A stretch of DNA of 24,356 bases from a virus. This document shows, in pieces, positions 6,269 to 21,600 of this stretch (position 1 is the first letter of the stretch; each line of letters starts with the position of its first letter). Both the position numbers and the translations under genes were made by a program. The stretch lies in IMG/VR virus record IMGVR_UViG_3300011115_000893, positions 1 to 24,356 of that record. The stretch is one strand, 5' to 3'. Under the pieces are notes generated by a model, which saw only the letters and a list, made by a program, of their open reading frames with translations, searched no databases and was not told the origin of the DNA.

Positions 6269-6419
6269 CTTCGTTTTCCTTTGCGCGTTGTTTCATAAAC
6301 TGGTTTGCCTGTGAAAAGGCTTCCTCATGGGGGAAGTCATTGTATTTGTTCCTAATCAGCAGCGCTGCCATTGCAAACATGGCGGCTAGGTCTCGTAGAT
6401 TTGTTTCGTGTTCGGTCAC
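6249..6419 (-). CDS. LRD-type small phage protein, GTG start
   Basis: 56 residues from GTG 6419. This start is chosen because it overlaps the upstream stop as GTGA and has CGGAG about 7 bases upstream; the longer open frame from 6515 runs antiparallel to nothing useful and would overlap the upstream HTH gene. The sequence NLRDLAAMFAMAALLIRNKY, then EEAFSQANQFMKQRAKE, fits the common small phage family whose members carry a LRDxFAA motif and end with a DAMLxER-like helix. The gene at 8588-8797 is a second member. Function unknown. Confidence 0.7.
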   Translation of the reverse strand: MTEHETNLRDLAAMFAMAALLIRNKYNDFPHEEAFSQANQFMKQRAKENEDAHRSD

Positions 6420-6664
6420 AGGGGTTTCTCCGTGGGTTTGGGGCAGTTCTGTGGCGGCACTACTACGCACCACACCGCAGCCCATTGCTTTCTGTGTTCT
6501 CTGTTGGAAATCCATCTATCGATGTAGGCATCAGACATGTCAAGCAGCGCACGGTTGATTGCCCCTTTGTCTTTTTCGGTACGCTCAGATATTTCAGATA
6601 CGGTCAAGCCATCGTGGTACTTTTGTAGCGCCATCCTGATTGCATGGTGGTTGGATTTACGCAC
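6416..6664 (-). CDS. Winged-helix/HTH DNA-binding protein
   Basis: 82 residues from GTG 6664, with AAGGAG correctly spaced inside the end of the preceding gene. Residues about 8-48 form a helix-turn-helix: AIRMALQKYHDGLTVSEISE, RTEKDKGAINRALLDM, then DAYIDRW. The C-terminal part has AAVWCVVVPPQNCPKPTEKP, a tail I recognise in related phage HTH proteins. It is likely a small DNA-binding regulator, perhaps of this operon or of the host. The fold call rests on pattern recognition, and the target is unknown. Its TGA overlaps the next GTG. Confidence 0.7.
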   Translation of the reverse strand: MRKSNHHAIRMALQKYHDGLTVSEISERTEKDKGAINRALLDMSDAYIDRWISNREHRKQWAAVWCVVVPPQNCPKPTEKPL

Positions 6665-6827
6665 TATTCTTCTCCTTCAACATCTTCGCGTATTCACAAA
6701 GTCTTTTAAAGACTTGCGGCTCAAGCGCCACTACTTTGTTTTCATGGTGGTTGGCTGCAAGCCAGATTTGAAATCCATCAAAGCTGGCGTACACGCCGTC
6801 ACCTAGGTAAGTCTGATGTTCATCCAT
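6657..6827 (-). CDS. 56-residue conserved microprotein
   Basis: From ATG 6827 to TAA 6657-6659. It begins MDEHQTYLGDGVYASFDGFQ and continues IWLAANHHENKVVALEP, a pattern I recall from many phage small proteins (YLGDGVYASFDG...ANHHEN). AAAGGAGAAGAACA lies directly upstream. It ends LKEKNSA, and the codons for KEK make the Shine-Dalgarno of the next gene. It overlaps the genes on both sides by 8 bases. Biochemical function is unknown. Confidence 0.75.
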   Translation of the reverse strand: MDEHQTYLGDGVYASFDGFQIWLAANHHENKVVALEPQVFKRLCEYAKMLKEKNSA

Positions 6828-7077
6828 TGTTCTTCTCCTTTAATTTGGCTTCAATGTCACGCACCATTTCCAATATGGTTGAACGCCCCGCCCCTGTTTG
6901 AAAATCCTCCCAATCCCAGTAGAGTTCTACCTCTTCATCCGTCAGCCCTATCCACGGCTTCTTGTACACCTGTGTATCGTCATCGTCATCCAAGACTTTA
7001 TTTAGGTAAGCCCTTGCAGATGGGGTGTCCGGTAACCGCGCAGCGCCCAACAATTTCTTTGATACGTATCCGGTCAT
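6820..7077 (-). CDS. Small acidic protein with MTGYxSKK N-terminus
   Basis: 85 residues from ATG 7077, with AGGAGG 7 bases upstream and an ATGA overlap with the preceding gene. It opens MTGYVSKKLLGAARLP, has an acidic DDDDD run near residue 32, a tryptophan/acid stretch (EVELYWDWEDF) and ends AKLKEKNNG. The MTGYxSKK opening recurs at 7928, and the LKEKN ending recurs in other operon genes. Function unknown. Confidence 0.7.
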   Translation of the reverse strand: MTGYVSKKLLGAARLPDTPSARAYLNKVLDDDDDTQVYKKPWIGLTDEEVELYWDWEDFQTGAGRSTILEMVRDIEAKLKEKNNG

Positions 7078-7388
7078 ACTTTTCCTCCTGCTCGAATTAC
7101 AACTCGTTCCATTGCATCCCCATAGTTCATGCCCAGTGCTTTGTCAATCAAGGCCAATGACTCGTCAATAATTGTTCCAAACGTACCTTCGTGCACTTTC
7201 CGAAGAATCCGTAATGTCTCTTTGGCATCCTCCAAAGCTTCGATATCCGCGCTGTTTACTTCGTACAATAGGTCAACGTCTTTTTGAATTGGGTCAATGA
7301 ACGGCTTAAGCGGCTGTATCTGATCAAACATCTTCTTTCCAAGCGCGTAGAACTCTTTGTCCTTGCCTGTGCTGTTATCTACTTTCAT
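7074..7388 (-). CDS. Hypothetical helical protein
   Basis: 104 residues from ATG 7388, which has GGAGA upstream and overlaps the preceding TGA; the further ATG at 7418 lacks these signs. The protein starts MKVDNSTGKDKEFYALGKKM and is charged and helical, with segments such as IEALEDAKETLRILRKVHEG. No catalytic motif is visible. Possible coiled-coil or adaptor protein, but that is only an impression. Confidence 0.65.
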   Translation of the reverse strand: MKVDNSTGKDKEFYALGKKMFDQIQPLKPFIDPIQKDVDLLYEVNSADIEALEDAKETLRILRKVHEGTFGTIIDESLALIDKALGMNYGDAMERVVIRAGGKV

Positions 7389-7606
7389 GTGTTTTTCTCC
7401 AATATGGATTCCAAGCAAATAACAAAAGCTTCGTAAAGCCCTGCTATATTTATCGGGTCGCCTGCTTCTTTGGTCAATTCAATTTCTTTTTTGTAGTGCC
7501 TAATCATGGCCTCTGCTTTTTGCTCCATAGTTTTTTGTGACCACGGGTACTGGCGGCTGGCGTAAACCATTTTGTCGGGGTCTGTTGGGTGTGGTTTAAG
7601 CGGCAT
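7385..7606 (-). CDS. Hypothetical protein
   Basis: 73 residues from ATG 7606, preceded by AAGGAGAAGAACA inside the end of the previous gene (11-base overlap). Starts MPLKPHPTDPDKMVYASRQY and continues with a basic-acidic helix (EQKAEAMIRHYKKEIELTKE). It ends LESILEKNT, whose codons supply the GGAG for the next gene. Not recognised. Confidence 0.65.
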   Translation of the reverse strand: MPLKPHPTDPDKMVYASRQYPWSQKTMEQKAEAMIRHYKKEIELTKEAGDPINIAGLYEAFVICLESILEKNT

Positions 7607-7928
7607 TGTTCTTCTCCTTGAGTTTGGATTCGATGGCTCGGCCTTTTGCGTATGCGTCATCTTTCCACTCCCAGTTTCCAGCATCCCCACTGACTCTTAA
7701 TTGCTCCATCCAATCAAGGCAATCAGTCAACGCAGAGAGCAACTCGGCATTTAGTTTGGAGGCTTCAATGCCCTTGCGGATTAAGTCGCTGGTCACCTGT
7801 GTTTCACGGTGTTCCCAATCGCTGTACAGCATATTGGTTCGGGCAAGGAACTCAATCTTTTCGTTGAGCCGTTCAATCTCGGCATCCCTGTCCTGCGCCG
7901 CTTTCTTTTTGCTTTGATAGCCTGTCAT
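7596..7928 (-). CDS. Coiled-coil protein with MTGYxSKK N-terminus
   Basis: 110 residues from ATG 7928, which overlaps the preceding TGA as ATGA and has AAGGGG upstream; a longer frame from 8003 is less likely. It opens MTGYQSKKKAAQDRDAEIER with a short coiled coil (EIERLNEKIEFLARTN), then a helical C-terminus with ALTDCLDWMEQLRVSGDAGN and an ESKLKEKNNAA end. The opening is shared with the gene at 6820-7077. MTGYQSKK openings are common in small phage proteins; the role is unknown. Confidence 0.7.
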   Translation of the reverse strand: MTGYQSKKKAAQDRDAEIERLNEKIEFLARTNMLYSDWEHRETQVTSDLIRKGIEASKLNAELLSALTDCLDWMEQLRVSGDAGNWEWKDDAYAKGRAIESKLKEKNNAA

Positions 7929-8143
7929 GTTGTTCCCCTTGCGCGGATAAGCCTTGCAAAATACGGCCCAGTGCGCGGTACTGCCATGAACATAGCTGCA
8001 CACTCTTCACGCTCATCAGCACGGGCTGCTGCTGCTACCAACTCGGCGAACTTTTCTGCGTATTCAAGACTAATGATGGGCATCCAGTTCACATCTGTGG
8101 CTATATGCATCCCCGCTTGCTTTGCTAGTTCAATGATGTTCAT
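7925..8143 (-). CDS. MNIIELA-family small protein (copy 1)
   Basis: 72 residues from ATG 8143, with AAGGGGAAAC upstream and an ATGA overlap. MNIIELAKQAGMHIATD is followed by YAEKFAELVAAAARADEREE and ends IRARGTT. It matches a small phage family with an N-terminal NIIELA helix and a central ADERE helix. A diverged tandem copy lies immediately upstream. Function unknown. Confidence 0.75.
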   Translation of the reverse strand: MNIIELAKQAGMHIATDVNWMPIISLEYAEKFAELVAAAARADEREECAAMFMAVPRTGPYFARLIRARGTT

Positions 8144-8373
8144 GTTGTTTCCCCTTGAGTGTTAGCTCTTTTTCGGATAAATTCAGCTACACCTTGTTTG
8201 TCATAGCCGTACAAATTTTCCCATTTTGTTGCAATGAATTTACGCTCATCAGCACGGACTGCTGCTTCTACCAAGTTGGCAAAGGCTTTCAAATAGTGAA
8301 TAAATTTATCGCGGTCTTTACCCATCCCGTAATATGTCAATCCCGATTCGTTTGCTAGTTCAATGATGTTCAT
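8140..8373 (-). CDS. MNIIELA-family small protein (copy 2)
   Basis: 77 residues from ATG 8373, overlapping the preceding stop by one base (TGATG) with GGGGGAAG upstream. MNIIELANESGLTYYGMGKD is followed by FANLVEAAVRADERKFIATK. It is a paralogue of the next gene: 23 identical bases at the two starts, and the same ADER block. The middle and C-terminal parts have diverged (VAEFIRKRANTQGETT end). Confidence 0.75.
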   Translation of the reverse strand: MNIIELANESGLTYYGMGKDRDKFIHYLKAFANLVEAAVRADERKFIATKWENLYGYDKQGVAEFIRKRANTQGETT

Positions 8374-8591
8374 CACTTCCCCCAAAAAAGTAAAAAAGCA
8401 ATCCACCCGCACAGCACTACAGCAACCATAGTAAGCAAGGCTTTGAAAGTTTCTGCCATATCATCCAGCGAATCTTCCTGCCCCACTAGGAACCCTTTGA
8501 CATAAGCCTCGTTGACTTCCTTGATACGCTGCTTGCGGATTGGGCAATCACGCCCTTGGTCGCAATCGCCGTTTGCGTTACAGCAGTTCAT
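8373..8591 (-). CDS. Cys-rich N-terminus with C-terminal membrane anchor
   Basis: 72 residues from ATG 8591, with AAGGAG 8 bases upstream. Five cysteines lie in the first 16 residues (MNCCNANGDCDQGRDCPIRK), which may bind metal. A helical middle is followed by one membrane segment at the end (LLTMVAVVLCGWIAFLLFWG). A tail-anchored inner-membrane protein with a cytoplasmic Cys cluster is the simplest reading. I recall similar NCxxGCxQGRDCP openings in other phages; no function is known. Confidence 0.75.
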   Translation of the reverse strand: MNCCNANGDCDQGRDCPIRKQRIKEVNEAYVKGFLVGQEDSLDDMAETFKALLTMVAVVLCGWIAFLLFWGK

Positions 8592-8797
8592 TTGTTGCGC
8601 TCCTTGAGCATTGCGTCTGCCATCTTATAGGCGTACTGGGCAATTGATTCGTATGCGGATGATTTCGTCAACATACCCTGCATAGCCTTTGCTGCAAAGT
8701 GGTCACGCAAGGTCATGTCCCTTGCAAAGCCGCCGGTCTTTACCATCCAGTCGGTGTACTCCTTAGCGTAAATCGTACCTGCAATCTCGTCTTTCAT
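8588..8797 (-). CDS. LRD-type small phage protein
   Basis: 69 residues from ATG 8797, with AGGAGA 8 bases upstream; the longer frame to 8995 covers the membrane microprotein gene and is rejected. It contains MTLRDHFAAKAMQGMLTKSS and ends AYKMADAMLKERNK, the signature of a widespread small phage family of unknown function. The AAG GAG CGC AAC end codons form the ribosome site of the next gene. Confidence 0.8.
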   Translation of the reverse strand: MKDEIAGTIYAKEYTDWMVKTGGFARDMTLRDHFAAKAMQGMLTKSSAYESIAQYAYKMADAMLKERNK

Positions 8798-8807
8798 GTC
8801 ATTTCTC

Positions 8808-8957
8808 CTAGTGAACCCAAAGATAAAAACCATGCAAAATGCCAATGGGGAACAAAAGAGCCCCCGCCAACAAGAAGCCCCACAAGCCCTGCGCGAAGCA
8901 GGTAAAGACGTGCGTGAACCACGCTGCCACGCAAAGTAGACCAATGATTTGCCCCAT
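8808..8957 (-). CDS. 49-residue two-helix membrane microprotein
   Basis: From ATG 8957 to TAG 8808-8810. It is almost entirely hydrophobic, with two likely membrane segments: IIGLLCVAAWFTHVFTC and GFLLAGALLFPIGILHGFY. AGGAGA overlaps the end of the upstream gene and is well spaced. Small phage membrane proteins with the FPxGIxHG pattern are common. It could act on the host envelope or be an accessory lysis or exclusion protein, but nothing shows which. It ends with TAG, so amber works as a stop here. Confidence 0.75.
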   Translation of the reverse strand: MGQIIGLLCVAAWFTHVFTCFAQGLWGFLLAGALLFPIGILHGFYLWVH

Positions 8958-8960
8958 GCC

Positions 8961-9173
8961 CTATTCTCCTGTCTTGTACTCATCCAAACGCTCATTCAAG
9001 CGCTTGATCCGGTTGATGTTGTAATCGACAATGCTCTGCGCATACTCGACTGCCGTTTCAGCTTGGAGCTTGGCCAAGTGACTCTCAGAAAGCTCTGCTG
9101 CAATCAATTCAAGCGGGGTAGGCTTTTTAAACGGCTCCTTGAGCAAGTCCCGTAACCCTATCTTTCTCATCAT
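8961..9173 (-). CDS. Small helical/coiled-coil protein
   Basis: 70 residues from ATG 9173 (a second ATG follows at once at 9170). The start overlaps the preceding stop as ATGA. Helical with heptad-like spacing: ELIAAELSESHLAKLQAETA, then EYAQSIVDYNINRIKRLNER. Small phage proteins with the AEYAQ...YN..RI.RL pattern are familiar; no function is known. It ends with TAG. Confidence 0.7.
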   Translation of the reverse strand: MMRKIGLRDLLKEPFKKPTPLELIAAELSESHLAKLQAETAVEYAQSIVDYNINRIKRLNERLDEYKTGE

Positions 9174-9508
9174 GACGTGCCCCCTACCGCCATGTCCGGC
9201 AGATCCAACTGGTCAGGACTGACCACGGGCCGCTTCTCGCGCTTCTTGGCCTTGATAGCCTCCTTGTTGGCTGCGTAATACTTACGGGCATACGCACGCT
9301 GACGCTCCAGCTTAGAAGCTTTTTCAAGCTCGCCTTTCGAATCGTTGGCCTTCTTGTCAATGATCAAGGCCTGCAACATCCCATCATGAACGGCAACCCC
9401 GTTCTTAACTTGTCTCAGCGTCCCCTCAAGAATAGCAACCCGAGTCTCAAGGACCTCGATCCGCGCCAACAGATTGGCATCCTGTTTAAGAAAATTAAAA
9501 ACACTCAT
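9170..9508 (-). CDS. Coiled-coil protein with basic C-terminus
   Basis: 112 residues from ATG 9508, with GGAGG upstream and an ATGA overlap with the 31-residue gene before it; the alternative start at 9553 would cover that gene. The first 60 residues form a probable coiled coil (ARIEVLETRVAILEGTL). Next comes a very basic helix (ERQRAYARKYYAANKEAIKA), then KKREKRP and an acidic tail. The basic part could bind nucleic acid; this is inference. Confidence 0.7.
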   Translation of the reverse strand: MSVFNFLKQDANLLARIEVLETRVAILEGTLRQVKNGVAVHDGMLQALIIDKKANDSKGELEKASKLERQRAYARKYYAANKEAIKAKKREKRPVVSPDQLDLPDMAVGGTS

Positions 9509-9600
9509 TTCACTAACCTCCAAGAATCCTTCACGGCCCGCGCAAGAGACCATCCCTTGCGTCGAAACATAAAGTACAAACGAACAAAATTAAGCATCAT
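9505..9600 (-). CDS. 31-residue basic microprotein
   Basis: From ATG 9600 (or the adjacent ATG 9597) to TGA 9505-9507. GGAGGAGA is 7-8 bases upstream. Sequence MMLNFVRLYFMFRRKGWSLA, then RAVKDSWRLVK: an amphipathic aromatic/basic peptide. I recall many phage micro-genes of the form F.R...RR.GW....A...W. It overlaps its upstream neighbour by 11 bases and its downstream neighbour by ATGA, which argues strongly that it is translated. Confidence 0.7.
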   Translation of the reverse strand: MMLNFVRLYFMFRRKGWSLARAVKDSWRLVK

Positions 9601-9898
9601 CTAAATCTCCTCCATACTGCTCAGCGCAGCTTTCACAGACGTAGCAAGAGTACAGGTCCGCGCCCCACGAATCAGTGATGCTGGACTGCTTGTGGTTCAT
9701 GTAGTGGCATTTGGGGCACTCAGTGGCCTCATAGACCTCCAATTGCTCGTCCGTGGCCTTGGCTTCAGGATAAGTCTCCTGAAACCCTGCCTTGGCATCT
9801 ACCTCGTTGTCAGCAAGGATCAAGGCCGAATACGAACCCTTAGGAATCTCCAGCAACACCATGTACCAAGTCGGGGAAGGGAAGCGGGTATCAATCAT
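9590..9898 (-). CDS. Small zinc-ribbon-like protein
   Basis: 102 residues from ATG 9898, with GAAGGGG upstream. The N-terminal half resembles a small beta domain (TWYMVLLEIPKGSYSALILA). The C-terminal half carries two CxxC pairs, ECPKCHY and CYVCESCAEQYG, a likely zinc ribbon. It ends GDLDDA, its last codons supplying the ribosome site and start of the 31-residue gene. Specific function unknown. Confidence 0.7.
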   Translation of the reverse strand: MIDTRFPSPTWYMVLLEIPKGSYSALILADNEVDAKAGFQETYPEAKATDEQLEVYEATECPKCHYMNHKQSSITDSWGADLYSCYVCESCAEQYGGDLDDA

Positions 9899-10049
9899 GG
9901 TCGGCCCCTTCTGTAATCTGCTCAAGCGTTACCTCAAAATCCCCGTTGCCGTTATGTTCTTCGTAGAACAAGTCCCACGCCTCCTGCTCAGTCTCGGCGG
10001 AAATCTCCACCTCACCGTATTCCTCGGACCAAAAAAGATACCTATTCAT
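9891..10049 (-). CDS. 52-residue acidic microprotein
   Basis: From ATG 10049, with AAGGAG 7-8 bases upstream; the longer open frame to 10151 overlaps the neighbouring gene. Begins MNRYLFWSEEYGEVEISAET and continues EQEAWDLFYEEHNGNGDFEV; strongly acidic, with the beta-then-helix look of small phage proteins. It could be a protein inhibitor or DNA mimic, but this is only suggested by charge. Confidence 0.65.
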   Translation of the reverse strand: MNRYLFWSEEYGEVEISAETEQEAWDLFYEEHNGNGDFEVTLEQITEGADHD

Positions 10050-10299
10050 CGTAATCTCCTTCAGGCTCATCGCCCATAGTGTCAAAAGTGATCTCAGCAC
10101 ACCTCTCAATGTCTTGGATCGTGGAGTAAGACAAGATATCCAATATCTCAATCTTGTTTGCCTTTACGCTGCTCAAGGTCAAAACGCCGGGGTCCGCTGG
10201 CTCGTCAAAGGTCGCTGGCGTGGCAGGCTCGTAATACAACTCGCAATCCAAAGAGCGAATCGGGCCGGACAAAGGGTATAAGTAGTTCAAATAAGGCAT
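10042..10299 (-). CDS. Small acidic conserved phage protein
   Basis: 85 residues from ATG 10299, close after the preceding TGA, with a weak GGTGG ribosome site. DCELYYEPATPATFDEPADP is followed by VLTLSSVKANKIEILDILSY and an EIERCAE-like helix. I recognise the D-C-E-L-x-Y-E-P...DEP layout from many phage hypothetical proteins, with no assigned function. Confidence 0.75.
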   Translation of the reverse strand: MPYLNYLYPLSGPIRSLDCELYYEPATPATFDEPADPGVLTLSSVKANKIEILDILSYSTIQDIERCAEITFDTMGDEPEGDYDE

Positions 10300-10300
10300 G

Positions 10301-10519
10301 TCAATCCACCACGTTGTAATAGGCCTCAAGCTGCACAAAGAGGTCAAAAAAGTCCTCCTCGGACAACAAAGTAAGCACTTCTAAAGCCTCGCGGCCCACG
10401 ACGACTTTTACCGAAGTTATACGCGCAGAACCACTGTCATCGTTACCATAATGCACCTCTACGGGTAACTTTAACGTTAAGTCAGCTATGCTGGTGTGTT
10501 TAGGCATCATTGATGTCAT
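10301..10519 (-). CDS. First gene of the minus operon, hypothetical
   Basis: 72 residues from ATG 10519. Its leader reads CCTAGAAAGGATAGAGCA, the same ribosome-site module used by the plus-strand cassettes. The protein has a beta-rich N-terminus (LTLKLPVEVHYG, ARITSVKVVV) and an acidic helix at the end. No known motif. As promoter-proximal gene it is probably the most strongly expressed in the operon. Confidence 0.7.
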   Translation of the reverse strand: MTSMMPKHTSIADLTLKLPVEVHYGNDDSGSARITSVKVVVGREALEVLTLLSEEDFFDLFVQLEAYYNVVD

Positions 10520-10625
10520 TGCTCTATCCTTTCTAGGTTTATGACGTTTAAAGGTTTTTGGGCCGTTGCCCGAGGCTTATTCTACGTTAATCTGCGTTAC
10601 TAAAACCCTTATTTTTGGGTGTCAA
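10520..10625 (-). promoter_or_regulatory. Promoter and leader of the 21-gene minus operon
   Basis: Read on the minus strand: TTGACA at 10625-10620, AAAAAT at 10616-10611, a -10-like TAGAAT at 10584-10579, and a short stem GGGC-AACG-GCCC at 10571-10560 just at the predicted mRNA start. AGAAAGGATAG precedes ATG 10519. TTGACA and TAGAAT are too far apart to pair as a standard promoter. The -10, 5' stem and leader match the design of the plus-strand cassettes. Confidence 0.5.
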
Positions 10626-12315: not shown

Positions 12316-12408
12316 GAAAAATGCAATCGGAAGGGGGCTAGAACCCGATTACAATGGTGCACCGGCACAGATTAACCGGTACTGTTAAACCCAAGAAAGG
12401 ATAGAGAG
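12316..12408 (+). promoter_or_regulatory. Cassette A promoter, 5' stem-loop and leader
   Basis: GAAAAATGCAATCGGAAGG begins at 12316, TACAAT at 12350-12355 is the -10, and no TTGACA-like -35 is present. A stem ACCGG (12361-12365) / CCGGT (12376-12380) starts at the predicted transcript 5' end. CCAAGAAAGGATAGAGAG gives the ribosome site for ATG 12409. The region is closely repeated before the gene at 13906. Confidence 0.65.
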
Positions 12409-12642
12409 ATGAAAACCGCAAAGGAAATTACAGCTTTTGTTAGGGCTTACAGCCAATGCATGGCTTATGAGAGCGCAGAAAATGCCGAGACCATTGTTCT
12501 AATGTTATCCATGGATTACGACGAGGAAAAAATATTGGAGCGTTTCCCCCAAGCCACTACAGTGCTTGACGCATACCACCTGTGGAACGAAGCCAAAAAG
12601 TTTAGCAATACCTACGCGACGGAAGGGGCTAAGAATGTTTAA
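12409..12642 (+). CDS. Hypothetical acidic helical protein (cassette A)
   Basis: 77 residues. MKTAKEITAFVRAYSQCMAY, then an acidic helical segment (LSMDYDEEKILERFPQ) and VLDAYHLWNEAKKF. No known motif. Strong AGAAAGGATAG ribosome site. It shares its transcript with the next gene, overlapping it by 8 bases. Function unknown; the setting points to an accessory role. Confidence 0.7.
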   Translation: MKTAKEITAFVRAYSQCMAYESAENAETIVLMLSMDYDEEKILERFPQATTVLDAYHLWNEAKKFSNTYATEGAKNV

Positions 12643-13003
12643 CGTTTACAACCACAATCACACCCTGCTCGGATCATTCGACACCAAGCAAGCCGCCGAT
12701 AGCGAAGCCGCCTTTTACACTGAGCAGACAGGCAACGCTGCCTTCGTCCACGAAGGGCCTAACCCCGTCAGCTACATTCGCCACCACCCCAAACCCCGCC
12801 AGCGCATAAAGTTTGTCGTTTGCTACCCTAGCACCCGCACGGCGGTCGCTGCTTTCGATACTCTCAAAGCCGCCCGTCACTATGCGGAGAACATGATCAT
12901 TGAGGGGTTCCCGTGGGACTTTCCGGCACGCACTGCGATACCTATTATTTCCCGTGAAACAATAGAAAAATACAATCAAAGGACAGCGCCAGCTATTGCA
13001 TAA
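12635..13003 (+). CDS. Hypothetical protein, second gene of cassette A
   Basis: 122 residues from ATG 12635, with GAAGGGG upstream and an 8-base overlap with the previous stop. Two similar beta-helix halves are suggested: FNVYNHNHTLLGSFDTKQAA and, later, KFVVCYPSTRTAVAAFDTLK followed by AARHYAENM. This looks like an internal duplication of a small fold. Its last codons (from GAAAAATACAATC at 12965) also serve as the upstream box of the next promoter. Confidence 0.65.
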   Translation: MFNVYNHNHTLLGSFDTKQAADSEAAFYTEQTGNAAFVHEGPNPVSYIRHHPKPRQRIKFVVCYPSTRTAVAAFDTLKAARHYAENMIIEGFPWDFPARTAIPIISRETIEKYNQRTAPAIA

Positions 13004-13048
13004 TTAGCTCATGCCGGAATAGTCCGGCACAACAGAAAGGATAGCATC
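12965..13048 (+). promoter_or_regulatory. Cassette B promoter, 5' stem-loop and leader
   Basis: GAAAAATACAATC (12965-12977) lies in the end of the previous gene. CATAAT at 12999-13004 is the -10 and straddles that gene's stop. A 7-bp stem TGCCGGA (13012-13018) / TCCGGCA (13023-13029) begins at the predicted +1. CAGAAAGGATAGCATC leads into ATG 13049. Confidence 0.6.
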
Positions 13049-13747
13049 ATGTTAAAAACAGTAGCAATTAGCGGCAACAGCAAAACGGGCCCCATAGCCG
13101 TTACGTATCGCGCAGGCGAACATGAGACTTACGGAACGTGCCCGAAGACATGCAAGCTTCACCCAAAAAGCGAAACCGGCACGGACCATATCGACAGCGA
13201 ATATTTAGCCGCCGTGTATGACGCTGTCCCCCGTGGCGGTTTGGCTTGGGCTTACAGTCACTTTACGGCGGAAGCTTTGCCACTGCCTGCCAAGGGTAAA
13301 ACGACAATCAACGCAAGCTGCGACACTATGCAAGACGCTGCCCGCGCTGTGGAGCTTGGCAGGCCCGCCGTATACGCTGCCCCATATAACAGCGCCGAAC
13401 AATGGCCGAAAAAATTCCACGGGATAAGCTTTGTTCGATGCCCTGCCGAATTGTCTGATTCCTTTACGTGCCACCAGTGCGGCAATGGCTCCCCATTGTG
13501 TGCCCGTGGCGATAGGGATTTTGTCGTGGTATTTGTCGGCCATGGCACGGGTAAAAAGCGAGTTGGCACGGATGCCGAAGGCGGTTGTTATGCGGCATCA
13601 GGACCGACAGCGATACAGTGGCACGCTACCAAAACAAAAGGCGTGGCCAATGATGCGCAGGCAGTGCGGGACTTTGCGCAGCGCTTACCCCATCGTTCTA
13701 TGCTGCGTCACCATATCGCAGGCGATATTGGGAGGGCTATTGCATGA
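13049..13747 (+). CDS. Cys-rich conserved phage protein (DUF7227-like)
   Basis: 232 residues. It starts ISGNSKTGPIAVTYRAGEH and continues with a TCPKTC motif (C31, C35). A second Cys group is C131, C141, C144 and C151, ahead of RDFVVVFVGHGTGKKRV, and GGCYAASG holds C180. The Cys pairs could bind a metal or a cluster. The opening S-G-N-x-K-T-G-P-I and the C-P-x-T-C motif match phage proteins that I recall being grouped as DUF7227; the name is from memory. No enzyme activity is established. It ends as ATGA with the 22-residue gene. Confidence 0.7.
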   Translation: MLKTVAISGNSKTGPIAVTYRAGEHETYGTCPKTCKLHPKSETGTDHIDSEYLAAVYDAVPRGGLAWAYSHFTAEALPLPAKGKTTINASCDTMQDAARAVELGRPAVYAAPYNSAEQWPKKFHGISFVRCPAELSDSFTCHQCGNGSPLCARGDRDFVVVFVGHGTGKKRVGTDAEGGCYAASGPTAIQWHATKTKGVANDAQAVRDFAQRLPHRSMLRHHIAGDIGRAIA

Positions 13748-13812
13748 TCATGGCATTCGTGGCCCTTGGTATCATCATAGCCCTAGGCTGGATTTTGGAC
13801 AAATTCGATTGA
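13744..13812 (+). CDS. 22-residue single-span membrane microprotein
   Basis: ATG 13744 overlaps the previous stop (ATGA), with GGGAGG well spaced upstream. Sequence MIMAFVALGIIIALGWILDK, then FD: one hydrophobic span followed by charged residues. Its TGA (13810-13812) runs into the upstream box of the next promoter. Too short for normal gene finders, but start, ribosome site and composition agree. Possible role in the host membrane, otherwise unknown. Confidence 0.6.
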   Translation: MIMAFVALGIIIALGWILDKFD

Positions 13813-13905
13813 AAAATTCAATCGGCAGGCAGTGAATATTCCCCTTACAATGGCGCACCGGCACAAATTAACCGGTATTTTTTAAACTCTATAGAAAGAA
13901 TAGTT
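13811..13905 (+). promoter_or_regulatory. Cassette C promoter, 5' stem-loop and leader
   Basis: GAAAAATTCAATCGGCAGG from 13811; TACAAT at 13846-13851 is the -10. A stem ACCGG (13857-13861) / CCGGT (13872-13876) is followed by ATTTTTT, so it could also attenuate transcription. AGAAAGAATAG leads to ATG 13906. Nearly all elements repeat those of cassette A in order and spacing. Confidence 0.65.
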
Positions 13906-14886
13906 ATGGCACATATGATCGATACCACCACCGGCACAGCCGCTATCGCTTACGCTGGTAAAACCCCATGGCACGGACTAGGTCAGGCGCTAACCGAAGG
14001 CGCTTCGATTGAAACGTGGACACGCGAAGCCGGTTTGGCTTATGACGTGCTGGAATCTCCCGTGTTGTTCCGCACTGCTGCTGCTACTGAGCCGGAGACA
14101 TTCAAGGGCCGCAAAGTACTGCACCGCAGCGACACGGGCGCAGCGCTGGCCGTAGTGTCTGACGGATACCACGTAGTGCAGCCCGCCGAAATAATGGGGT
14201 TTTTTTCCGATTTAGTGGCGCTAGGCGGTTTTCAATTGGAGACAGCCGGAGCCCTTAGCTATGGCCGTAGGGTTTGGGCGCTGGCATCCGTAGGCGAAGC
14301 CGCACCAGTTATCGATGGCGACATGGTCAAGCCTTACCTATTGCTTGGCACGTCATACGATGGAACCATGGCAACAGTGGCGAAATTCACAGCTATCCGC
14401 GTAGTGTGCAATAACACCATAACCGCAGCAGTCGGCAGCGAATCCGATATTGATAAGGGCTATCTGAAAAGTGCTATTCGCGTGCTGCACAGTGAGCGCT
14501 TTGATGCTGATGCTGTCCGCCTTCAATTGGGGATTGTGGCAAATCAATTCGAGCGCTTTTTAGTGCAGAGCCGCCAATTAGCGGGCGTGCCAATGACCAC
14601 CACGGAAGCGGATGCATTTGTGGCCGAATTGCTCAAGCCTTACCACCAAGGGAAAACCGCTGTGTCTGACAGCCGCGCTTATAAGCGAATAATTCAATTA
14701 TTCGAGGGCGCTGCCATTGGTTCGGATATCGATGGGGTTACCGGAACGCGCTGGGGCATGCTCAATGCTGTAACCGAATTGGTGGACCATGAGCGCGGGC
14801 GAAGCGACAATACCCGCCTTGAATCGGCATGGTTTGGCACTGGTAACGTGCTAAAAAATCGGGCAGTAGAATTGCTGGCCGCTTAA
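13906..14886 (+). CDS. DUF932 phage/plasmid-like protein
   Basis: 326 residues, the usual length for this family (TIGR03299 type). Recognisable blocks are KTPWHGLGQAL near residue 20, SDGYHVVQPAEIMGFFSDLV, YLLLGTSYDGTMATVAKFTA followed by IRVVCNNT, LKSAIRVLHSERF, and GTRWGMLNAVTELVDHERG near the end with a SAWFGTGN motif. DUF932 proteins are common on phages and plasmids, often near anti-restriction genes, but their activity is not established. It has its own promoter and terminator, so it is a single-gene unit. Confidence 0.85.
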   Translation: MAHMIDTTTGTAAIAYAGKTPWHGLGQALTEGASIETWTREAGLAYDVLESPVLFRTAAATEPETFKGRKVLHRSDTGAALAVVSDGYHVVQPAEIMGFFSDLVALGGFQLETAGALSYGRRVWALASVGEAAPVIDGDMVKPYLLLGTSYDGTMATVAKFTAIRVVCNNTITAAVGSESDIDKGYLKSAIRVLHSERFDADAVRLQLGIVANQFERFLVQSRQLAGVPMTTTEADAFVAELLKPYHQGKTAVSDSRAYKRIIQLFEGAAIGSDIDGVTGTRWGMLNAVTELVDHERGRSDNTRLESAWFGTGNVLKNRAVELLAA

Positions 14887-14902
14887 CGATAGGGTAATGC
14901 TG

Positions 14903-14944
14903 GCGAATTTCCCCCGTAAAACGGGTAATTCGCTGGCCGTTTTT
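14903..14944 (+). terminator. Terminator after the DUF932 gene
   Basis: GCGAATT (14903-14909) pairs with AATTCGC (14927-14933), enclosing CCCGT / ACGGG (14913-14925, loop AAA). A T-run follows at 14940-14944. It starts 17 bases after the DUF932 stop. Confidence 0.65.
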
Positions 14945-14945
14945 C

Positions 14946-15125
14946 CGGTTGCTTTCGATATCGGAAACCAGCCCCCGAGCCGCGCACCGACAGCCCTAAA
15001 AAGTTATTCGCGCTGCGCTGGCCGCGCCCCGTGGCACGCGCTTCGCGTGCCACGGATAACGCTGCGCTATCCGCGCCCGTAGGGCTCGCGCAGCGAAGGA
15101 TAGCGCAGCGTTATCGGCTATCGAT
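14946..15125 (+). other. GC-rich, highly foldable non-coding block
   Basis: There is no convincing gene. A 12-bp perfect hairpin CCGTGGCACGCG (15029-15040) / CGCGTGCCACGG (15044-15055) is followed by an 18-bp perfect inverted repeat, GATAACGCTGCGCTATCC (15055-15072) and its complement at 15098-15115, with a 25-base loop. AGCCCTA near 14991-14997 can also pair with TAGGGCT near 15080-15086, enclosing the first hairpin. GCTGCGCT occurs twice as a direct repeat. It may be a structured RNA or an extra terminator system. Confidence 0.6.
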
Positions 15126-15140
15126 GGGGCTGGTTTGATT

Positions 15141-15227
15141 GATAAATACAATGGGGGCTGGGGCTGGTATGCCCTTATAATTGCATCATGCCAGCGCGGT
15201 GCTGGTATCAACAGAAAGGATATTGAT
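15141..15227 (+). promoter_or_regulatory. Cassette D promoter, 5' stem-loop and leader
   Basis: GATAAATACAATGGGGGC from 15141; a perfect -10 TATAAT at 15176-15181. A stem TGCCAGC (15189-15195) / GCTGGTA (15201-15207) with one G-U starts at the predicted +1. CAGAAAGGATATTGAT leads to ATG 15228. Confidence 0.65.
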
Positions 15228-15674
15228 ATGGGCTTAGATATGTATCTTAATGCACGCAGCAGCGTGGGCGCTTACGATGACACTGCGCAAATGGAATTAG
15301 AAAAAGTGCCGTTTATTGCAGCTACTGGCATGCGGGTAACTGGCATTACTTACCGCGCTATGTACTGGCGCAAAGCAAATGCCATCCACAAATGGTTTGT
15401 GGATAACGTGCAAGACGGCGTGGACAATTGCGAAGAATTCCACGTTAGCCCGCAGCACCTGCAATTGCTGCGCGACACTTGCCAGCAGGTGCTAGACAAT
15501 AGAGAAAAAGCAGGGGAGCTACTGCCGCCCAGTGCCGGATTCTTTTTTGGCACCACTGATATCACCGAATATTACTTTGATGATTTGCGCGACACTGTCG
15601 AGGGGCTGGATAGAGCGCTGGCACTTGCGCAGCGCGATAGCTGGGTGACGTTTACTTATCAGTCCAGTTGGTAG
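15228..15674 (+). CDS. Conserved MGLDMYL-type phage protein
   Basis: 148 residues from ATG 15228, set by the leader; the longer frame from 15135 would run through the promoter. MGLDMYLNARSSVG is followed by MYWRKANAIHKWFVDNVQDG, VDNCEEFHVS, then ELLPPSAGFFFGTTD and YYFDDLRDTVEGLDRALAL. This order of blocks is typical of a widespread phage and bacterial family of unknown function with the WRKAN.IH.WFV core. It ends with TAG followed by a strong terminator. Confidence 0.8.
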   Translation: MGLDMYLNARSSVGAYDDTAQMELEKVPFIAATGMRVTGITYRAMYWRKANAIHKWFVDNVQDGVDNCEEFHVSPQHLQLLRDTCQQVLDNREKAGELLPPSAGFFFGTTDITEYYFDDLRDTVEGLDRALALAQRDSWVTFTYQSSW

Positions 15675-15680
15675 CAGTAC

Positions 15681-15715
15681 GCTATCGGGGCTCGCGCCCC
15701 GATAGCTATATTTTT
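15681..15715 (+). terminator. Strong intrinsic terminator
   Basis: GCTATCGGGGC (15681-15691), loop TCGC, GCCCCGATAGC (15696-15706), then TATATTTTT. Eleven perfect pairs and a T-run, 7 bases after the stop of the gene at 15228-15674. Confidence 0.85.
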
Positions 15716-15716
15716 C

Positions 15717-15794
15717 TTGCCGCGCCGCCCTGCTGGGGTATACTTACCCCAGCCCCCAGCAGGGCTATATCATCAACCTAGAAAGGATAGCATT
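15717..15794 (+). promoter_or_regulatory. Cassette E promoter in nested palindromes, leader
   Basis: TTGCCG (15717-15722), a 16-bp spacer and TATACT (15739-15744). The -10 sits inside CTGGGGTA / TACCCCAG (15733-15752), itself within CCCTGCTGGGG / CCCCAGCAGGG (15728-15763). AGCCC / GGGCT can pair from the predicted +1 at 15751. CTAGAAAGGATAGCATT leads to ATG 15795. The palindromes could be an operator. Confidence 0.65.
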
Positions 15795-16214
15795 ATGAAA
15801 ACCCAAGGCACTAAACTCTCCACGTACGTGAACAATCTATTTGCTACATGCGAAGATATGGAAGCAGCGTTAGCACAGGCCGCCAATATTGCAGGTGGCT
15901 CGGACAATGCCGCCGCCGTCCACACTGCCGTTCATATGGTTTTGAACACAGCCATCAAATTGCATCAAGCAGATATGGCCAAGGCTAACGCACCGCTGCT
16001 TGAATTGATCGATGCAAGGATTCAAGAGTCGCTCACTACGGTGGACAGCCTGATTGAGCATGCGCTCGAAGTCTATGGCCGGACAGTAGACGACAAGATC
16101 GAATTGGCCATCGATGATATCGATCTGAATCAGAACGTGGCCGACTGGATGGATAACAACTTTGATCTGGAAAACTCACTGTCTGGATTAAGTGTCCGAA
16201 TCAACTTTGATTAA
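15795..16214 (+). CDS. Hypothetical helical protein (cassette E)
   Basis: 139 residues from ATG 15795. Almost wholly helical and acidic: MKTQGTKLSTYVNNLFATCE, AVHMVLNTAIKLHQADMAKA, SLTTVDSLIEHALEVYGRTV, then an acidic end with IDDIDLNQNVADWMDN. No known domain. It could be a small regulator or decoy protein, but the sequence does not show this. Confidence 0.7.
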   Translation: MKTQGTKLSTYVNNLFATCEDMEAALAQAANIAGGSDNAAAVHTAVHMVLNTAIKLHQADMAKANAPLLELIDARIQESLTTVDSLIEHALEVYGRTVDDKIELAIDDIDLNQNVADWMDNNFDLENSLSGLSVRINFD

Positions 16215-16220
16215 TCGATA

Positions 16221-16307
16221 GAAATAATTGTGAGCCAGCCCGTAGGGGCTGGCTTATAATGTACCTGTCAGCAGCCGCTGACAATCAACCCTAGAAAGGA
16301 TAGCAAA
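16221..16307 (+). promoter_or_regulatory. Cassette F promoter, 5' stem-loop and leader
   Basis: A perfect 9-bp hairpin AGCCAGCCC (16233-16241) / GGGCTGGCT (16246-16254) directly abuts TATAAT (16255-16260). A second stem TGTCAGC (16266-16272) / GCTGACA (16277-16283) begins at the predicted +1. CTAGAAAGGATAGCAAA leads to ATG 16308. GAAATAATTG at 16221 is a weak match to the upstream box. The first hairpin may end the cassette E transcript or act as operator. Confidence 0.65.
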
Positions 16308-16589
16308 ATGAAGACTCGTATATTGAACCTCGGATGGGACTGCAAGCTGGTTATACCTGAGAGTGTTTCCCCCAAAGATCTGCAAGCGCTTATTGGGTTT
16401 CTCGGCACGCTGCGTAAGACCTCTACACATAGCAACTTTGCTGGCCCCGACTTTATGTATGCCAACAACTTTGCTGGCGTGCAACTCGAAGAAGTAGATC
16501 TACACTCAGAGGCGGATGCTAGGCGCTTGAGCGAAGAAAGCAAAGCAGCGTACAAGGCGCGCGAAGCAATGGAGAAGGCGGCAGCCTAA
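16308..16589 (+). CDS. Hypothetical protein (cassette F)
   Basis: 93 residues. MKTRILNLGWDCKLVIPESV suggests a short beta start, SPKDLQALIGFLGTL a helix, and the end (DARRLSEESKAAYKAREAME) a charged helix. No known motif. Strong leader upstream and two terminators downstream make it a single-gene unit. Confidence 0.7.
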   Translation: MKTRILNLGWDCKLVIPESVSPKDLQALIGFLGTLRKTSTHSNFAGPDFMYANNFAGVQLEEVDLHSEADARRLSEESKAAYKAREAMEKAAA

Positions 16590-16595
16590 ACCTCA

Positions 16596-16649
16596 AACTG
16601 GGGGCGCTGCCCCCAGTTACCCTAAGCGGCCCAACTGGGCCGCTTTTTC
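16596..16649 (+). terminator. Double terminator closing the cassette region
   Basis: First hairpin AACTGGGGGC (16596-16605) / GCCCCCAGTT (16609-16618). Second AGCGGCCC (16625-16632) / GGGCCGCT (16637-16644) followed by TTTTTCTTT. The second is a classical intrinsic terminator and isolates the cassettes from the packaging genes. Confidence 0.85.
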
Positions 16650-16800
16650 TTTGCCTGTGCAAATCGGCCCAGCCCGTGCACCTGGCCAATTCCCAAAAAA
16701 GCCTTATAAATCAAGCACTTACGCGATGCTTGCCAAATGTAATAGAGTCGCTTGAATGATTCCCAATAACGCAATATAAATTGGTAAGCATTACCTAATA

Positions 16801-16933
16801 GCTATGGCTGGCTTGCCAGCCATAGCCTAAGCCTATCCCGCTATCACGCACCGCGCCCCATAGCCGCAGGCTATGGGCTGTGGCCCTCCCTTGCCCGTTA
16901 GGGCCCCATGCGTGGCATGGGGGGAGGGCCACA
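16801..16933 (+). other. Structured non-coding block with a three-way junction
   Basis: Three adjacent folds: GCTATGGCTGGC (16801-16812) / GCCAGCCATAGC (16815-16826); CCCATAGCC (16857-16865) / GGCTATGGG (16869-16877); and a 12-bp stem TGTGGCCCTCCC (16879-16890) / GGGAGGGCCACA (16922-16933). The last encloses two further hairpins, GCCC-GTTA-GGGC (16893-16904) and CCCATG / CATGGG (16905-16921), leaving only TT unpaired at the junction. No gene is present from 16650 to 17002; 16650-16800 is AT-richer without clear features. Possible structured RNA or packaging-site DNA. Confidence 0.55.
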
Positions 16934-17044
16934 AGGCTACCGGCTTCTCTGTCGTTCGCCTCCGCCCATGTTTTACAGCCATAAAACGGTATTTAGGAAT
17001 TATTGGACCCCACCCCCTTGTTTTTAAAAAGGCAAGGCCGGGGG

Positions 17045-17080
17045 TATACTAAAAAAATTCAGAACTTTACGAGTCTGCCC
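17045..17080 (+). promoter_or_regulatory. Promoter of the packaging/virion operon
   Basis: GGGGGTATACT (TATACT at 17045-17050) matches the -10 context of cassette E. No clear -35. The predicted start near 17057 leaves a short leader before ATG 17081, with only a weak GAG as ribosome site. Confidence 0.45.
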
Positions 17081-18550
17081 ATGGTCCACGCTCCGCCGTC
17101 CGATGTCGAACACAAACGCCTCTTGCTGGAACTGCGCCTCCAGCAGATCCAAATCAGGGACAAAGCCTCCAACGAATTCCTAGAATTCTGTCGTTACGTC
17201 TGGCCGGAGATCATCATTGGTGAACACCATCGGCGTATTGCCAAGGCCCTTGATCGGGTAATCGAGGGCAAGTGCAAACGACTCATGGTCGCCATGCCCC
17301 CGCGCCACGGCAAGTCACAGATGGGCAGTTATCTGTTTCCCGCCTACCTGATGGGAAAGCTCCCCGCTTCTAAGCTTATTGTGGGATCTCACACTGCCGA
17401 GTTGGCTCAGCGCTTTGGCCGGATGATCAGGAACCTTGTTGATGAGGACAGGTACAAGGAACTTTTCCCCGGCGTGGGCCTTTCTGCTGACAGCAAGGCT
17501 GCTGGTCGGTGGAACACGAAGGGTGGTGGAGAAGCCTATTTCATTGGTAAGGGCGGCGCGATGACCGGGCGCGGCGGGGATATTGTGATTTTGGACGATA
17601 TCTTGGACGAGCAGGACGCTTTGTCGGAGACCGCCATGGAGAACACTTGGGAGTGGTACACCTCGGGCCCCCGTCAGCGGCTCCAGCCCAACGGCACGAT
17701 TATCGTGATCAACACCCGTTGGAAGACGGATGACCTGACTGGTCGGTTGTTAAAGCAGCAGGGGCAGTTAAAGTCGGATCAGTGGGAGGTCTTGGAATTT
17801 CCTGCCATCTTGCCTTCTGGTCGCGCACTGTGGCCCGAGTATTGGAGCATAGATGAGCTAGAAAAGGTCAAGGTCAGCATTGGCCTGAAGAAGTGGAATG
17901 CCCAGTGGCAGCAGCAGCCCACCAATGATGAGGGGGCGATCCTGAAGCGCGATTGGTGGCGCAAGTGGACTTATGACGAGCCACCGGCCTGTGAGTACAT
18001 TATTCAGTCGTACGATACGGCGTACTCCAAGAAGGAGACAGCGGACTACTCTGTTATCTCGACGTGGGGCGTGTTCACTCCCAATGCCGACTCGGGGCCC
18101 AATCTGATCTTGCTCAATGTCAAGCGTGGGCGCTGGGACTTCCCGGAATTAAAGCGCGTTGCGCGGGCCGAGTACCTTTATTGGAATCCAGATAACGTCT
18201 TGATTTAGGCCAAGGCCACCGGCACGCCACGCCAGCAGGAGTTGCGCAAGGTCGGGATTCCTGTGACGATGTACTCCCCGGGCGGACGGCGCACGGGCCA
18301 AGACAAGATATCTCGTGCTAATGCGGTAGCCCCTTTGTTGGAGTCGGGGATGATTTGGTATCCACCGGACTTGGAGTGGGCGCAGGAGATGGTGGAGGAG
18401 TGTGCTGCTTTCCCCAACGGATCGCATGACGATCAGGTGGACTCAGCGGTCATGGCTTGGAGCCGGTTTCGCGCTGGCAACTTTATTGCTTTGGACTCGG
18501 ACGAAAAGGATGAAGAGCATCCGGAGAGCGCGGTATTAGAGTACTATTGA
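17081..18550 (+). pseudogene. terL: Terminase large subunit, interrupted by an in-frame amber codon
   Basis: 489 sense codons plus TAG at 18206-18208 (codon 376). ATG 17081 is preferred over TTG 17003, which lies upstream of the promoter. ATPase domain: MPPRHGKS (Walker A, K78), DIVILDDI (Walker B, D172-D173), INTRWKTDDL. Nuclease domain: QSYDTAYSKKETADYS with D312 and D322, then after the amber the third site HDDQVDS near residue 450. The frame continues unbroken past TAG for 114 codons as AKATGTPRQQELRKVG, where related proteins read LIE-x-K-x-TG. One base change from GAG would explain it. As written the protein lacks a catalytic aspartate. Whether this is suppression, readthrough, a defective phage or a sequence error is open. 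Confidence 0.85.
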
Positions 18551-18615
18551 CGTAGCTTGACGGCCCAGTAAAATGGTGATAATACTCACCATTCACGTTC
18601 CGAGGATCACGGACC

Positions 18616-21600
18616 ATGGCTAACCCCACAAATGAAGAATTCATCAACCGCATCATGGAAGCGGAAAGCAGTGGCCGTAGGTACGACAAGAACGGAAAGC
18701 TACTGCAAGGTCCAAAGACTAAGCATGGTACGGCCAAGGGTGAGATGCAGGTTTTGGACAAGACCAATTTTGACCCCGGCTTTGGCGTAGAGCCTGCCAA
18801 AAACAAATCTCCTGAAGAGCGGGCCCGGGTGGGCCGCGATTATGCAAAAGCGATGCTGGATCGGTACAACGACAAGCAGCATGCTGCCATGGCTTACAAC
18901 TGGGGTCCGGGCAACGTGGATAAGTGGCTTGCAAAAGGTCAATCCGCTCCTGTCCCCAAGGAGACAGAGGATTATGTTGTCAAGGTGACGGGCGCTCCGA
19001 TTGGAGCGCAGGTAGCAAAAAAGCCTGCCGCTTCTCCTTTTGAAACAGCCGCCGCCCCCGCTCCGGCAGCAGCCGCTGGTGCACCCAAAGCTCCCGCCTC
19101 ACCTCCGGTGAAAAAGGTAGCGCAAGCGACTCCCGCCCCAGCGCCGACTGAAGATATCAAGGCGAGGATCGCGGCCCTCGGGCCAAACTACCATGCCGCC
19201 ATGGCGCTGTCCTATTTGGCGGACAACACCGATGAGGATGACCCGGCAATCCAGTCGTACAGGGAGCGCATGGGGGAGGAGTCTGAGCGCAGCGCTTTAC
19301 TTAGTGAGCCTGTTGTTTCTCCTGCCATTGCAGATTTGGATTTAAAAGTACGCAGCCCGTTTCCAGAACCGGTGGCCGCTGCTCGGGGTGGGTTGATTCA
19401 CCGGGCCGGTGGTTCGCCTGAGGAGGGGGAAGAGGTTACCGGCGATAGCGATACCATGGCAAGCAACACTGATCCTGAGACAGGTCGGGTTGCTACTACA
19501 AAGTATGGGGAACAAACCCCGGTCTACTCTTTCCAAGGAAAAGAGTACCCTGCTGCGCAAGGCGCTAACCTACCGCCGTCACGTTCTAAACAGGCGCTTG
19601 AGGCTTATGTACAAGCAATGGTTCCTGATGCAAACATACGGGAAAAATACCCTCTTAGTGATTCGGTCAGAGGATTTATAAGTAGAAAAGATCCCAGCAC
19701 AATTAATTTAAGTCCTATCCTTTCTCCCGGATCACGGGAAGAGACCATGTTGCATGAAGCCGAGCATTCAATGGATGCTCGGGGTGGTGATTTGCTTGGT
19801 CGTCCAAAAGTTAGAAACATGGATAACAACTACCGGGCGTATTACCTGATGGGAAGCCGGTGGGCCCCTGTCAACATGACGGTCAAGAACCTTGTGGACA
19901 ACAAAGATGAACTGGAAAAGTTTTTTGGTCGTCCATTGGACAACTCGTATTTCAGAAAAGAAACGTATGCCAATGTTGCCAAAGATGGCGATCCGTCTGC
20001 TTTGTTTTCTGAACAGTTGGCAACTTTGTCAGCTTTGGAGCAGCAAACTGGGAAGTTCTTGACGCACGATCCTAAGATGCGTGAACTGATTTTCCCGTCA
20101 AACCCTTTGTACAACAACACCAGCATGATGGCGGTGTACGATGCTTTGACCGGGCCTCGCCAGACTCGCATGGATGCGAGGGACATGCCGCCCCACACGC
20201 CTGTTCCGTCTTACTTGTATGAAGAGCCGGGGTCTATGTCTCGTTTCTTTCGCAAGCATACGACTGGCCCAAATGAATATGGCATCCCCATCAAACGCGC
20301 CGATGGTTCTCCTGAGGAGGGGGAAAGTTCTCCTGAGTATTCTTTTATGGGGGCGGCTCGCCCTGACAATGAGCATAAGCTTTACCCTAAGACCGAGCGC
20401 ATGAATCCTGTTGTCAAAGCGGTAAAGTCGGGAGTGGACACTTTTAACCGTTTTATTGATAGCGGACCATCAGTAGGTAGGGTGGTAGGTGACGTAGTGG
20501 GGGCCATACCTTTTGTTGGCCCAGACCTACGTAAAAGCATGGAAGAGTCCACCGTTACTTTGCCTACGAGGTATACACGTTCTCCCACAAATCCAAACGT
20601 GGCAGTAGGTGTTGAAACTTCTAAAGTTCCTGTAACTGACGCATTAAACAGTGTAAAGATGTCCGACCTTGTTGGCGGGACGGGAGTGAGCAATGTTCTG
20701 GGTAGTGTGGGCAAAGGGTATGCGCCTTCCCCGCTGGATGTTTTGGACACCGTAGGTGCTGGCGCTGTCGGTTACAAAGCGGCCAAGGCGGGTGTAAAAA
20801 CTGCCAAAAAAGCTTCTGACATGTTGAAAGAATTGAAAACTCCAGCGCAAGTGGCCGCTAACGTTGAGCCTGCATTGGATGCAGCAACTCCCGCCGCTGC
20901 ATCCCTTTCTGCCATGGCAACTCAAAAGGGCGCTACAGCCACTCCATTCTTCAGTCCTTTGGATGCGTACGCACAGACGCTGACAGGCCCCGTTACTCCG
21001 GCTGAGTTTATTAAGCAAGTACAAAACAAGGGTTTTCGTGCATACGATGTAGAGCGGGCAAAGGAAGCCATGCAAAAACTAGGGACGGGCCAAGTTTCTC
21101 CTGCCCAGATTTTGGATTCACTAGATAAAACTTACCATCCCGAAAGCTTTATTACCAAAGTTGCAGAACCGGGGACCGTTGGATTTACCCACCCCGATGT
21201 AGATAATGTGTTCAACGGAAGAGGCAAAAGCCCTCCCCAAGGCGTAGTGAGCTTGCATCTTCCAGTTACGGAACAAATGCGGGAAGCTAGGCAAGTACAA
21301 ATTGCTTTAGAAAACTTAAAAAGTTATAAATTGAGTTTAATCAACCCTAGTGTTACATCTAACTCCGTAATGACATCAGCGGAAAAAGCAGCCAGTTTGA
21401 TAGCGGATGTCTATGGGCAACGCAGTGAACAAGCCCTTGATGCCATGGAATCCGTAGATCTTATACGCCGGAAACAGGAACAAATTGTTCCTTACTTAGA
21501 GCAAATTCCTGAATACTTAAAATTACAACAAGAATTTAAATATCCCATGGCAAAGGCAGATGCAAAATTGTTTTCACAAAAGTATGAGCAAGAAGGAAAA

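Follow-up and report, generated by a model that had tools for sequence, protein, structure and literature searches.

A repeated promoter, 5' stem and ribosome leader before unrelated accessory genes in a freshwater phage group

In uncultivated freshwater phages of one group, accessory genes of many unrelated kinds are preceded by the same upstream module, in which a -10 box is followed by a stem-loop at the predicted transcript start (+1) and then by a ribosome leader, AGAAAGGATAG, before the ATG. Computational comparison with relatives establishes the layout, the position of the stem relative to the predicted +1, the persistence of pairing despite sequence change, the recurrence of the module and the exchange of genes at the leader. 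We assign a probability of about 0.55 to the reading that the module joins a host sigma70 promoter to a sequence-independent protective 5' stem and a strong ribosome site that doubles as an exchange point. Transcripts would then begin at the predicted ends, be stabilised by their stems and be made early by the host polymerase.

The window analysed here is the entire IMG/VR record IMGVR_UViG_3300011115_000893 (24,356 bases); it encodes a DNA polymerase, a helicase and both terminase subunits, and its phage is a member of this group. The nearest annotated record is Phage DSL-LC04 (OR003939), with 73.6% DNA identity across part of the polymerase, 59% identity in TerL and 73% in the DUF932 protein; in the TerL ranking it is followed by Pelagibacter phages. 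The DSL-LC04 genome was assembled from a metagenome of Dishui Lake; its authors proposed the family 'Dishuiviridae' for it and, by software, predicted Pseudomonas as the host (PMC10611076). Downstream of the terminase region, a single 1402-codon ORF extends over 18616-22824 of the window.

Modules in the window

The initial annotation described a -10 box, an inverted repeat beginning 6-8 bases downstream and a leader before six neighbouring genes, and this order is present at all six sites with small corrections (Table 1). The distance from -10 to stem measures 5-7 nt and not 6-8. One leader departs from AGAAAGGATA: at 13893 the sequence reads AGAAAGAATA. All six stems were detected, but they are not of equal status, those of units 1 and 3 being weak on their own (5 bp, 10-nt loop, about -6 to -7.5 kcal/mol). 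In unit 5, a 5-bp stem does lie at the predicted +1; the conspicuous 12-bp inverted repeat that had been taken for it cannot sit in an mRNA starting there because its left arm is upstream of the -10 box. That longer repeat would fold in read-through RNA only, or act on DNA, and it is kept in two related loci, L009 and L014, with matching changes in the arms.

Two features come in addition to those first described: a seventh full module, on the minus strand, and a fourth element, a box like GAAAAATNCAAT, in units 1-4. The seventh module stands at the head of a run of many small leftward genes (5905-10519, minus strand). At 15055-15115, in the gap between the DUF932 gene and unit 4, there is a perfect 18-bp inverted repeat, GATAACGCTGCGCTATCC, with other GC-rich repeats around it.

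Table 1. Coordinates of the modules and of other stem-loops in the window.
Feature	Position	Strand	Gene or remark
Unit 1	12316-12404	+	gene 12409-12642
Unit 1 A-tract box GAAAAATGCAAT	12316-12327	+	
Unit 1 -10 TACAAT	12350-12355	+	
Unit 1 stem ACCGG/CCGGT	12361-12380	+	fold -7.5 kcal/mol
Unit 1 leader AGAAAGGATAG	12394-12404	+	
Unit 2	12965-13044	+	DUF7227 (Pfam PF23872) gene 13049-13747
Unit 2 box GAAAAATACAAT	12965-12976	+	
Unit 2 -10 CATAAT	12999-13004	+	
Unit 2 stem TGCCGGA/TCCGGCA	13012-13029	+	
Unit 2 leader	13034-13044	+	
Unit 3	13811-13903	+	DUF932 (Pfam PF06067) gene 13906-14886
Unit 3 box GAAAAATTCAAT	13811-13822	+	
Unit 3 -10 TACAAT	13846-13851	+	
Unit 3 stem ACCGG/CCGGT	13857-13876	+	
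Unit 3 leader variant AGAAAGAATAG	13893-13903	+	
Unit 4	15141-15222	+	gene 15228-15674
Unit 4 box GATAAATACAAT	15141-15152	+	
Unit 4 -10 TATAAT	15176-15181	+	
Unit 4 stem ATGCCAGC/GCTGGTAT	about 15188-15208	+	
Unit 4 leader AGAAAGGATA	15213-15222	+	
Unit 5	15727-15790	+	gene 15795-16214
Unit 5 -10 TATACT	15739-15744	+	within 12-bp inverted repeat 15727-15738/15754-15765
Unit 5 stem in predicted mRNA AGCCC/GGGCT	15751-15766	+	5 bp
Unit 5 leader	15780-15790	+	
Unit 6	16221-16303	+	gene 16308-16589
Unit 6 -10 TATAAT	16255-16260	+	
Unit 6 stem TGTCAGC/GCTGACA	16266-16283	+	
Unit 6 leader	16293-16303	+	
Unit 7	10517-10584	-	heads leftward small-gene run starting with ATG 10519
Unit 7 -10 TAGAAT	10584-10579	-	
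Unit 7 stem GGGC/GCCC	10571-10560	-	
Unit 7 leader	at 10534	-	
Intrinsic-terminator-like stem, T-rich tail	15681-15706	+	between gene 15228-15674 and unit 5
Stem-loop	16596-16618	+	after gene 16308-16589
Intrinsic-terminator-like stem	16624-16645	+	after gene 16308-16589

With at most one mismatch allowed, the window has nine matches to AGAAAGGATA where 1.29 would be expected, a count reached in none of 100 shuffles, and six of these nine matches are the sites initially claimed. The string AGAAAGGA within the leader is complementary to the 16S 3' end UCCUUUCU, which a plasmid-collection search placed in Burkholderiales and Firmicutes records; as a clue to the host this match is only suggestive, and a genome search by 16S 3' end added little, with a match in 1 of 75 genomes. 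Nor is the leader string diagnostic by itself, since most of its matches in contigs that have no window homologue carry no module (any strong stem in 13 of 35). A 59.9-kb relative has the exact leader-ATG six times, every one within 13.8-20.8 kb.

Alignment of 117 modules from the group shows a -10 consensus of TATAAT, a weak -35, a partial extended -10 and an A-tract lying between about -45 and -40, features that make the promoter look like the host sigma70 type; the A-tract resembles an UP element. Because -35 boxes are weak here, we used the spacing between -10 and stem in place of a consensus -35/-10 scan, which found sites in the region no more numerous than in shuffles. The box GAAAAATNCAAT is present in 38 of the 117 modules (3.3 expected), nearly always at one position upstream of the -10; given its ATTG...CAAT symmetry, it could alternatively be an activator site. 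Around the predicted start, C occupies -1 in 57% of modules, A occupies +1 in 55% and a purine occupies +1 in 75%. Among the 53 modules with C-purine at -1/+1, the gap from -10 to stem is 6 or 7 nt in 44.

Position and pairing of the 5' stem

Relatives were gathered with the DUF932 protein as one query, which gave 80 loci, and the leader pattern as the other, and the 557 leader-ATG sites found in related viral contigs were reduced to 266 distinct upstream regions. A single hairpin is unremarkable (27% of shuffled 45-nt regions score equally high), whereas the constant position of the stem over the 266 regions exceeds chance. Strong stems occur in 64% of these regions compared with 27% in shuffles, and 33% of the regions fold below all 20 of their own shuffles. 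Gaps of 6 and 7 nt between the -10 box and the stem are the most frequent (33 and 34 cases, compared with 0-10 at distant gaps), and since a gap of six nucleotides sets the stem at +1, this peak corresponds to +1 or +2. Sequence statistics, namely the gap peak and the initiator bases, thus agree with the proposal that the stem begins at the predicted mRNA 5' end, and its start lies within 0-2 nt of the predicted +1.

The 117 aligned modules were preselected for a stem at a gap of 4-8 nt, which biases their fold z-scores, and we gave those scores no weight. The stems measure 4-11 bp, with loops mostly of 3-5 nt, and comprise 106 different sequences. Compensatory change, the check that had been proposed for the stems of relatives, was found in one group of 20 DUF932 leaders, in which both partners had changed in 6 of 10 pairs and 94.4% of pair cells are standard compared with 10-63% in slid controls; a second leader group, with short stems, gives weaker covariation support. 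In the stems, G-T outnumbers A-C by 48 to 26 when both are scored alike, an excess that favours RNA over a double-stranded DNA site, although relatedness partly inflates both these counts and the covariation. The expectation that sequence would vary while position and pairing were kept is thereby upheld, and with the same partial inflation by relatedness the stems show the kept RNA structure and free sequence of a 5'-terminal mRNA-stabilising stem.

Leaders inside operons carry the module less often than others (5 of 20 versus 86 of 196), which is the expected direction but not significant (P = 0.15); a looser, ORF-based operon split was too noisy, labelling unit 1 of the window as operon-internal. 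Among 48 control starts with another ribosome site in the related loci, some also have a stem at the +1 position, so use of such stems may be wider than this leader. Upstream of the -10, too, the regions show somewhat better folding than shuffles do.

Recurrence and gene exchange in related phages

The initial annotation had held that the module should be found upstream of the same genes in related phages and that its absence would count against it; a scan for leader plus stem showed that the layout recurs, before the same genes and before unrelated ones. Upstream of DUF932, 50 of 58 distinct regions have the leader and 48 have a -10 with a correctly spaced stem (shuffled rate 0.12); upstream of DUF7227, the leader is in 54 of 64 and the -10 with a correctly spaced stem in 36 (shuffled rate 0.19). 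In DSL-LC04 a -10 followed by a stem at +1 is kept before DUF932 and its neighbours. The exact AGAAAGGATA-ATG leader was not found in that genome, whose repeated leader differs: ACATACAGGAGAAA precedes several genes on the minus strand at 15030-18866 (locus L202, OR003939), some of them with a stem at the predicted +1. A word search of the DSL-LC04 paper for promoter, stem-loop and hairpin returned no mention (PMC10611076). We also considered whether the module is a trait of DUF932 genes in general and rejected this, as four more distant relatives, two on plasmids and two in bacterial MAGs, are without the leader.

The 557 genes behind the leader represent 122 protein families, in keeping with the claim that the module precedes unrelated genes, and all seven families of the window recur with the leader. 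Relatives share a constant frame of DUF7227, DUF932 and then the family of the gene at 15795, with slots before DUF7227 and after DUF932 that hold different small genes in different phages. L014, for example, is without the gene at 15228: its similarity to the window breaks off at 15171 and picks up again at 15733, so that the junction lies within the promoter spacer. In L009 the unit 5 region is present twice, and the two copies enclose two additional genes.

Both ends fell in the leader-ATG repeat in 25 of 136 indel events compared with 0.36 expected at random, a count that is inflated because the alignment (BLAST) extends through the conserved leader. The cleanest exchange case is a 159-bp insertion that distinguishes L031 from L029, with flanks that are 97.5% and 98.2% identical and a shared leader of 18 nt. 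The second gene there has a leader and no promoter of its own, and therefore the exchanged piece can be a gene and leader alone. Some gains and losses of small genes thus appear to map to the 18-nt leader repeat and to reflect exchange there. The description of the module as a plug-in cassette fits these variable genes in recurrent slots.

Explanations and known systems

If the stem is protective, each accessory gene or short gene run would have a sigma70 promoter of the host type to itself, in many cases with an A-tract, and its transcript would open with a short stem of arbitrary sequence, first base at +1 or +2, ahead of the leader. Such a paired end would be a poor substrate for host enzymes that require an unpaired 5' end (RppH, and RNase E by 5'-tethering), and the short mRNAs would be longer-lived and strongly translated. 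The leader repeat before every ATG would offer short homology for gene insertion, loss and exchange, and a gene arriving at it would be expressed at once. We infer protection from 5'-end-dependent decay because it accounts for stems that retain their position and pairing but not their sequence. In E. coli, the preference of RppH and RNase E 5'-tethering for single-stranded 5' ends explains stabilising 5' stems, but RppH inactivation affects only about 10% of mRNAs (PMC3997798), and the pathway of the phage's host may differ. Counting against protection, about one-third of the leaders in related loci are without a strong stem, and some stems, such as those of units 1 and 3, are weak.

It is unlikely that the stem serves mainly as insulation, with stability secondary; in that role it would prevent variable sequence upstream from pairing with the leader and keep the ribosome site open no matter which gene comes next. 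The constant leader, with its match to the 16S 3' end of Burkholderiales and Firmicutes records, does adjoin a self-contained stem, and the genes downstream are unrelated; yet insulation needs no stem start exactly at +1 or +2, the position that is kept. We regard as very unlikely a terminator or attenuator, as in the promoter early stem-loop (PeSL) cassettes of T4-like phages, that ends upstream read-through or limits transcription of its own gene. Like PeSL cassettes, the modules pair a promoter with a stem-loop, cluster in a variable zone and are shuffled between copies, and a T-run follows the stem in some related leaders. However, at least five T within the next 8 nt were found after only 10 of 117 stems and were absent after 107, a result on which we rejected the stem as a terminator; it also sits just past the promoter whose gene it would block, and the window has other, terminator-like stems at 15681-15706 and 16624-16645.

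It is also very unlikely that a regulator acting at the promoter recognises the inverted repeats as DNA. The long unit 5 repeat around the -10, conserved in L009 and L014, would suit such a site, as would the somewhat better folding of regions before the -10, but the 106 different stems in 117 modules hold no common site, the ground on which a stem operator was rejected, and the excess of G-T over A-C indicates RNA. Least probable is a by-product of duplicated strong promoters and leaders, with functionless stems inherited by common descent: the relatives do share ancestry, which partly inflates the covariation statistics, yet the stems diverge fully while pairing and position persist, and compensatory changes occur inside orthologous DUF932 leaders.

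Building on the protective stem, we tentatively suggest that accessory genes in this phage family may be standardised as interchangeable parts (promoter, sequence-free protective stem, and leader as joining site), such that any gene landing there would be stable and expressed. If this is true, many natural replicates would show that phages select for pairing at the mRNA 5' end regardless of sequence, and the more than 100 stems would form a natural library for testing the rules of 5'-end protection. It would also provide a concrete model, beyond T4-like phages, of small accessory genes that are swapped yet still expressed.

Every ingredient of the module is already known, the nearest systems being PeSL cassettes and ompA/papA-type stems; their repeated, sequence-free and position-fixed combination across a phage group was not found described among the open-access papers searched. 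As far as PMC4503421 describes them (Arbiol 2010, Comeau 2014), PeSL cassettes resemble the module in their sigma70-type promoter with adjacent stem-loop, their many copies in a variable zone and the shuffling of genes between copies, which was also found here with a count inflated by BLAST extension through the leader. Their stem-loop is described there as a terminator and their carriers as T4-type myoviruses, whereas here the stem is at +1 of the gene's own transcript, the resolved exchange point is the ribosome leader and not the stem, and the phages belong to an unrelated group nearest in TerL to DSL-LC04 and then to Pelagibacter phages. The scarcity of T-runs, and hence of an intrinsic terminator, is why we do not file the module as PeSL.

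The 5'-terminal stabilising stems of E. coli ompA and papA (Emory, Bouvet, Bricker, Belasco; reviewed in PMC3997798) likewise lie at the extreme 5' end before the ribosome site, where they are expected to block enzymes that require a single strand. Those are single host genes, whereas the phage layout is repeated before many unrelated genes with arbitrary stems; by analogy, the module probably works like such a stem in stabilising its mRNA. Within the phage group, DSL-LC04 shares the -10 and +1-stem layout before DUF932 but differs from the window in its leader.

The T7 gene 10 leader also opens, at the transcript start, with a 5' stem followed by a purine-rich ribosome site, but it is driven by a phage RNA polymerase and not by sigma70-like promoters. 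In the hairpin promoters of the N4 virion RNA polymerase, the hairpin lies upstream of +1, has conserved bases and serves the promoter; the stems here are similarly near the start site but lie downstream of the -10 and are free in sequence, with 106 different ones. Terminator-like stems, which together with a promoter flank each gene in a moron, follow only the genes at 15228-15674 and 16308-16589 in the window.
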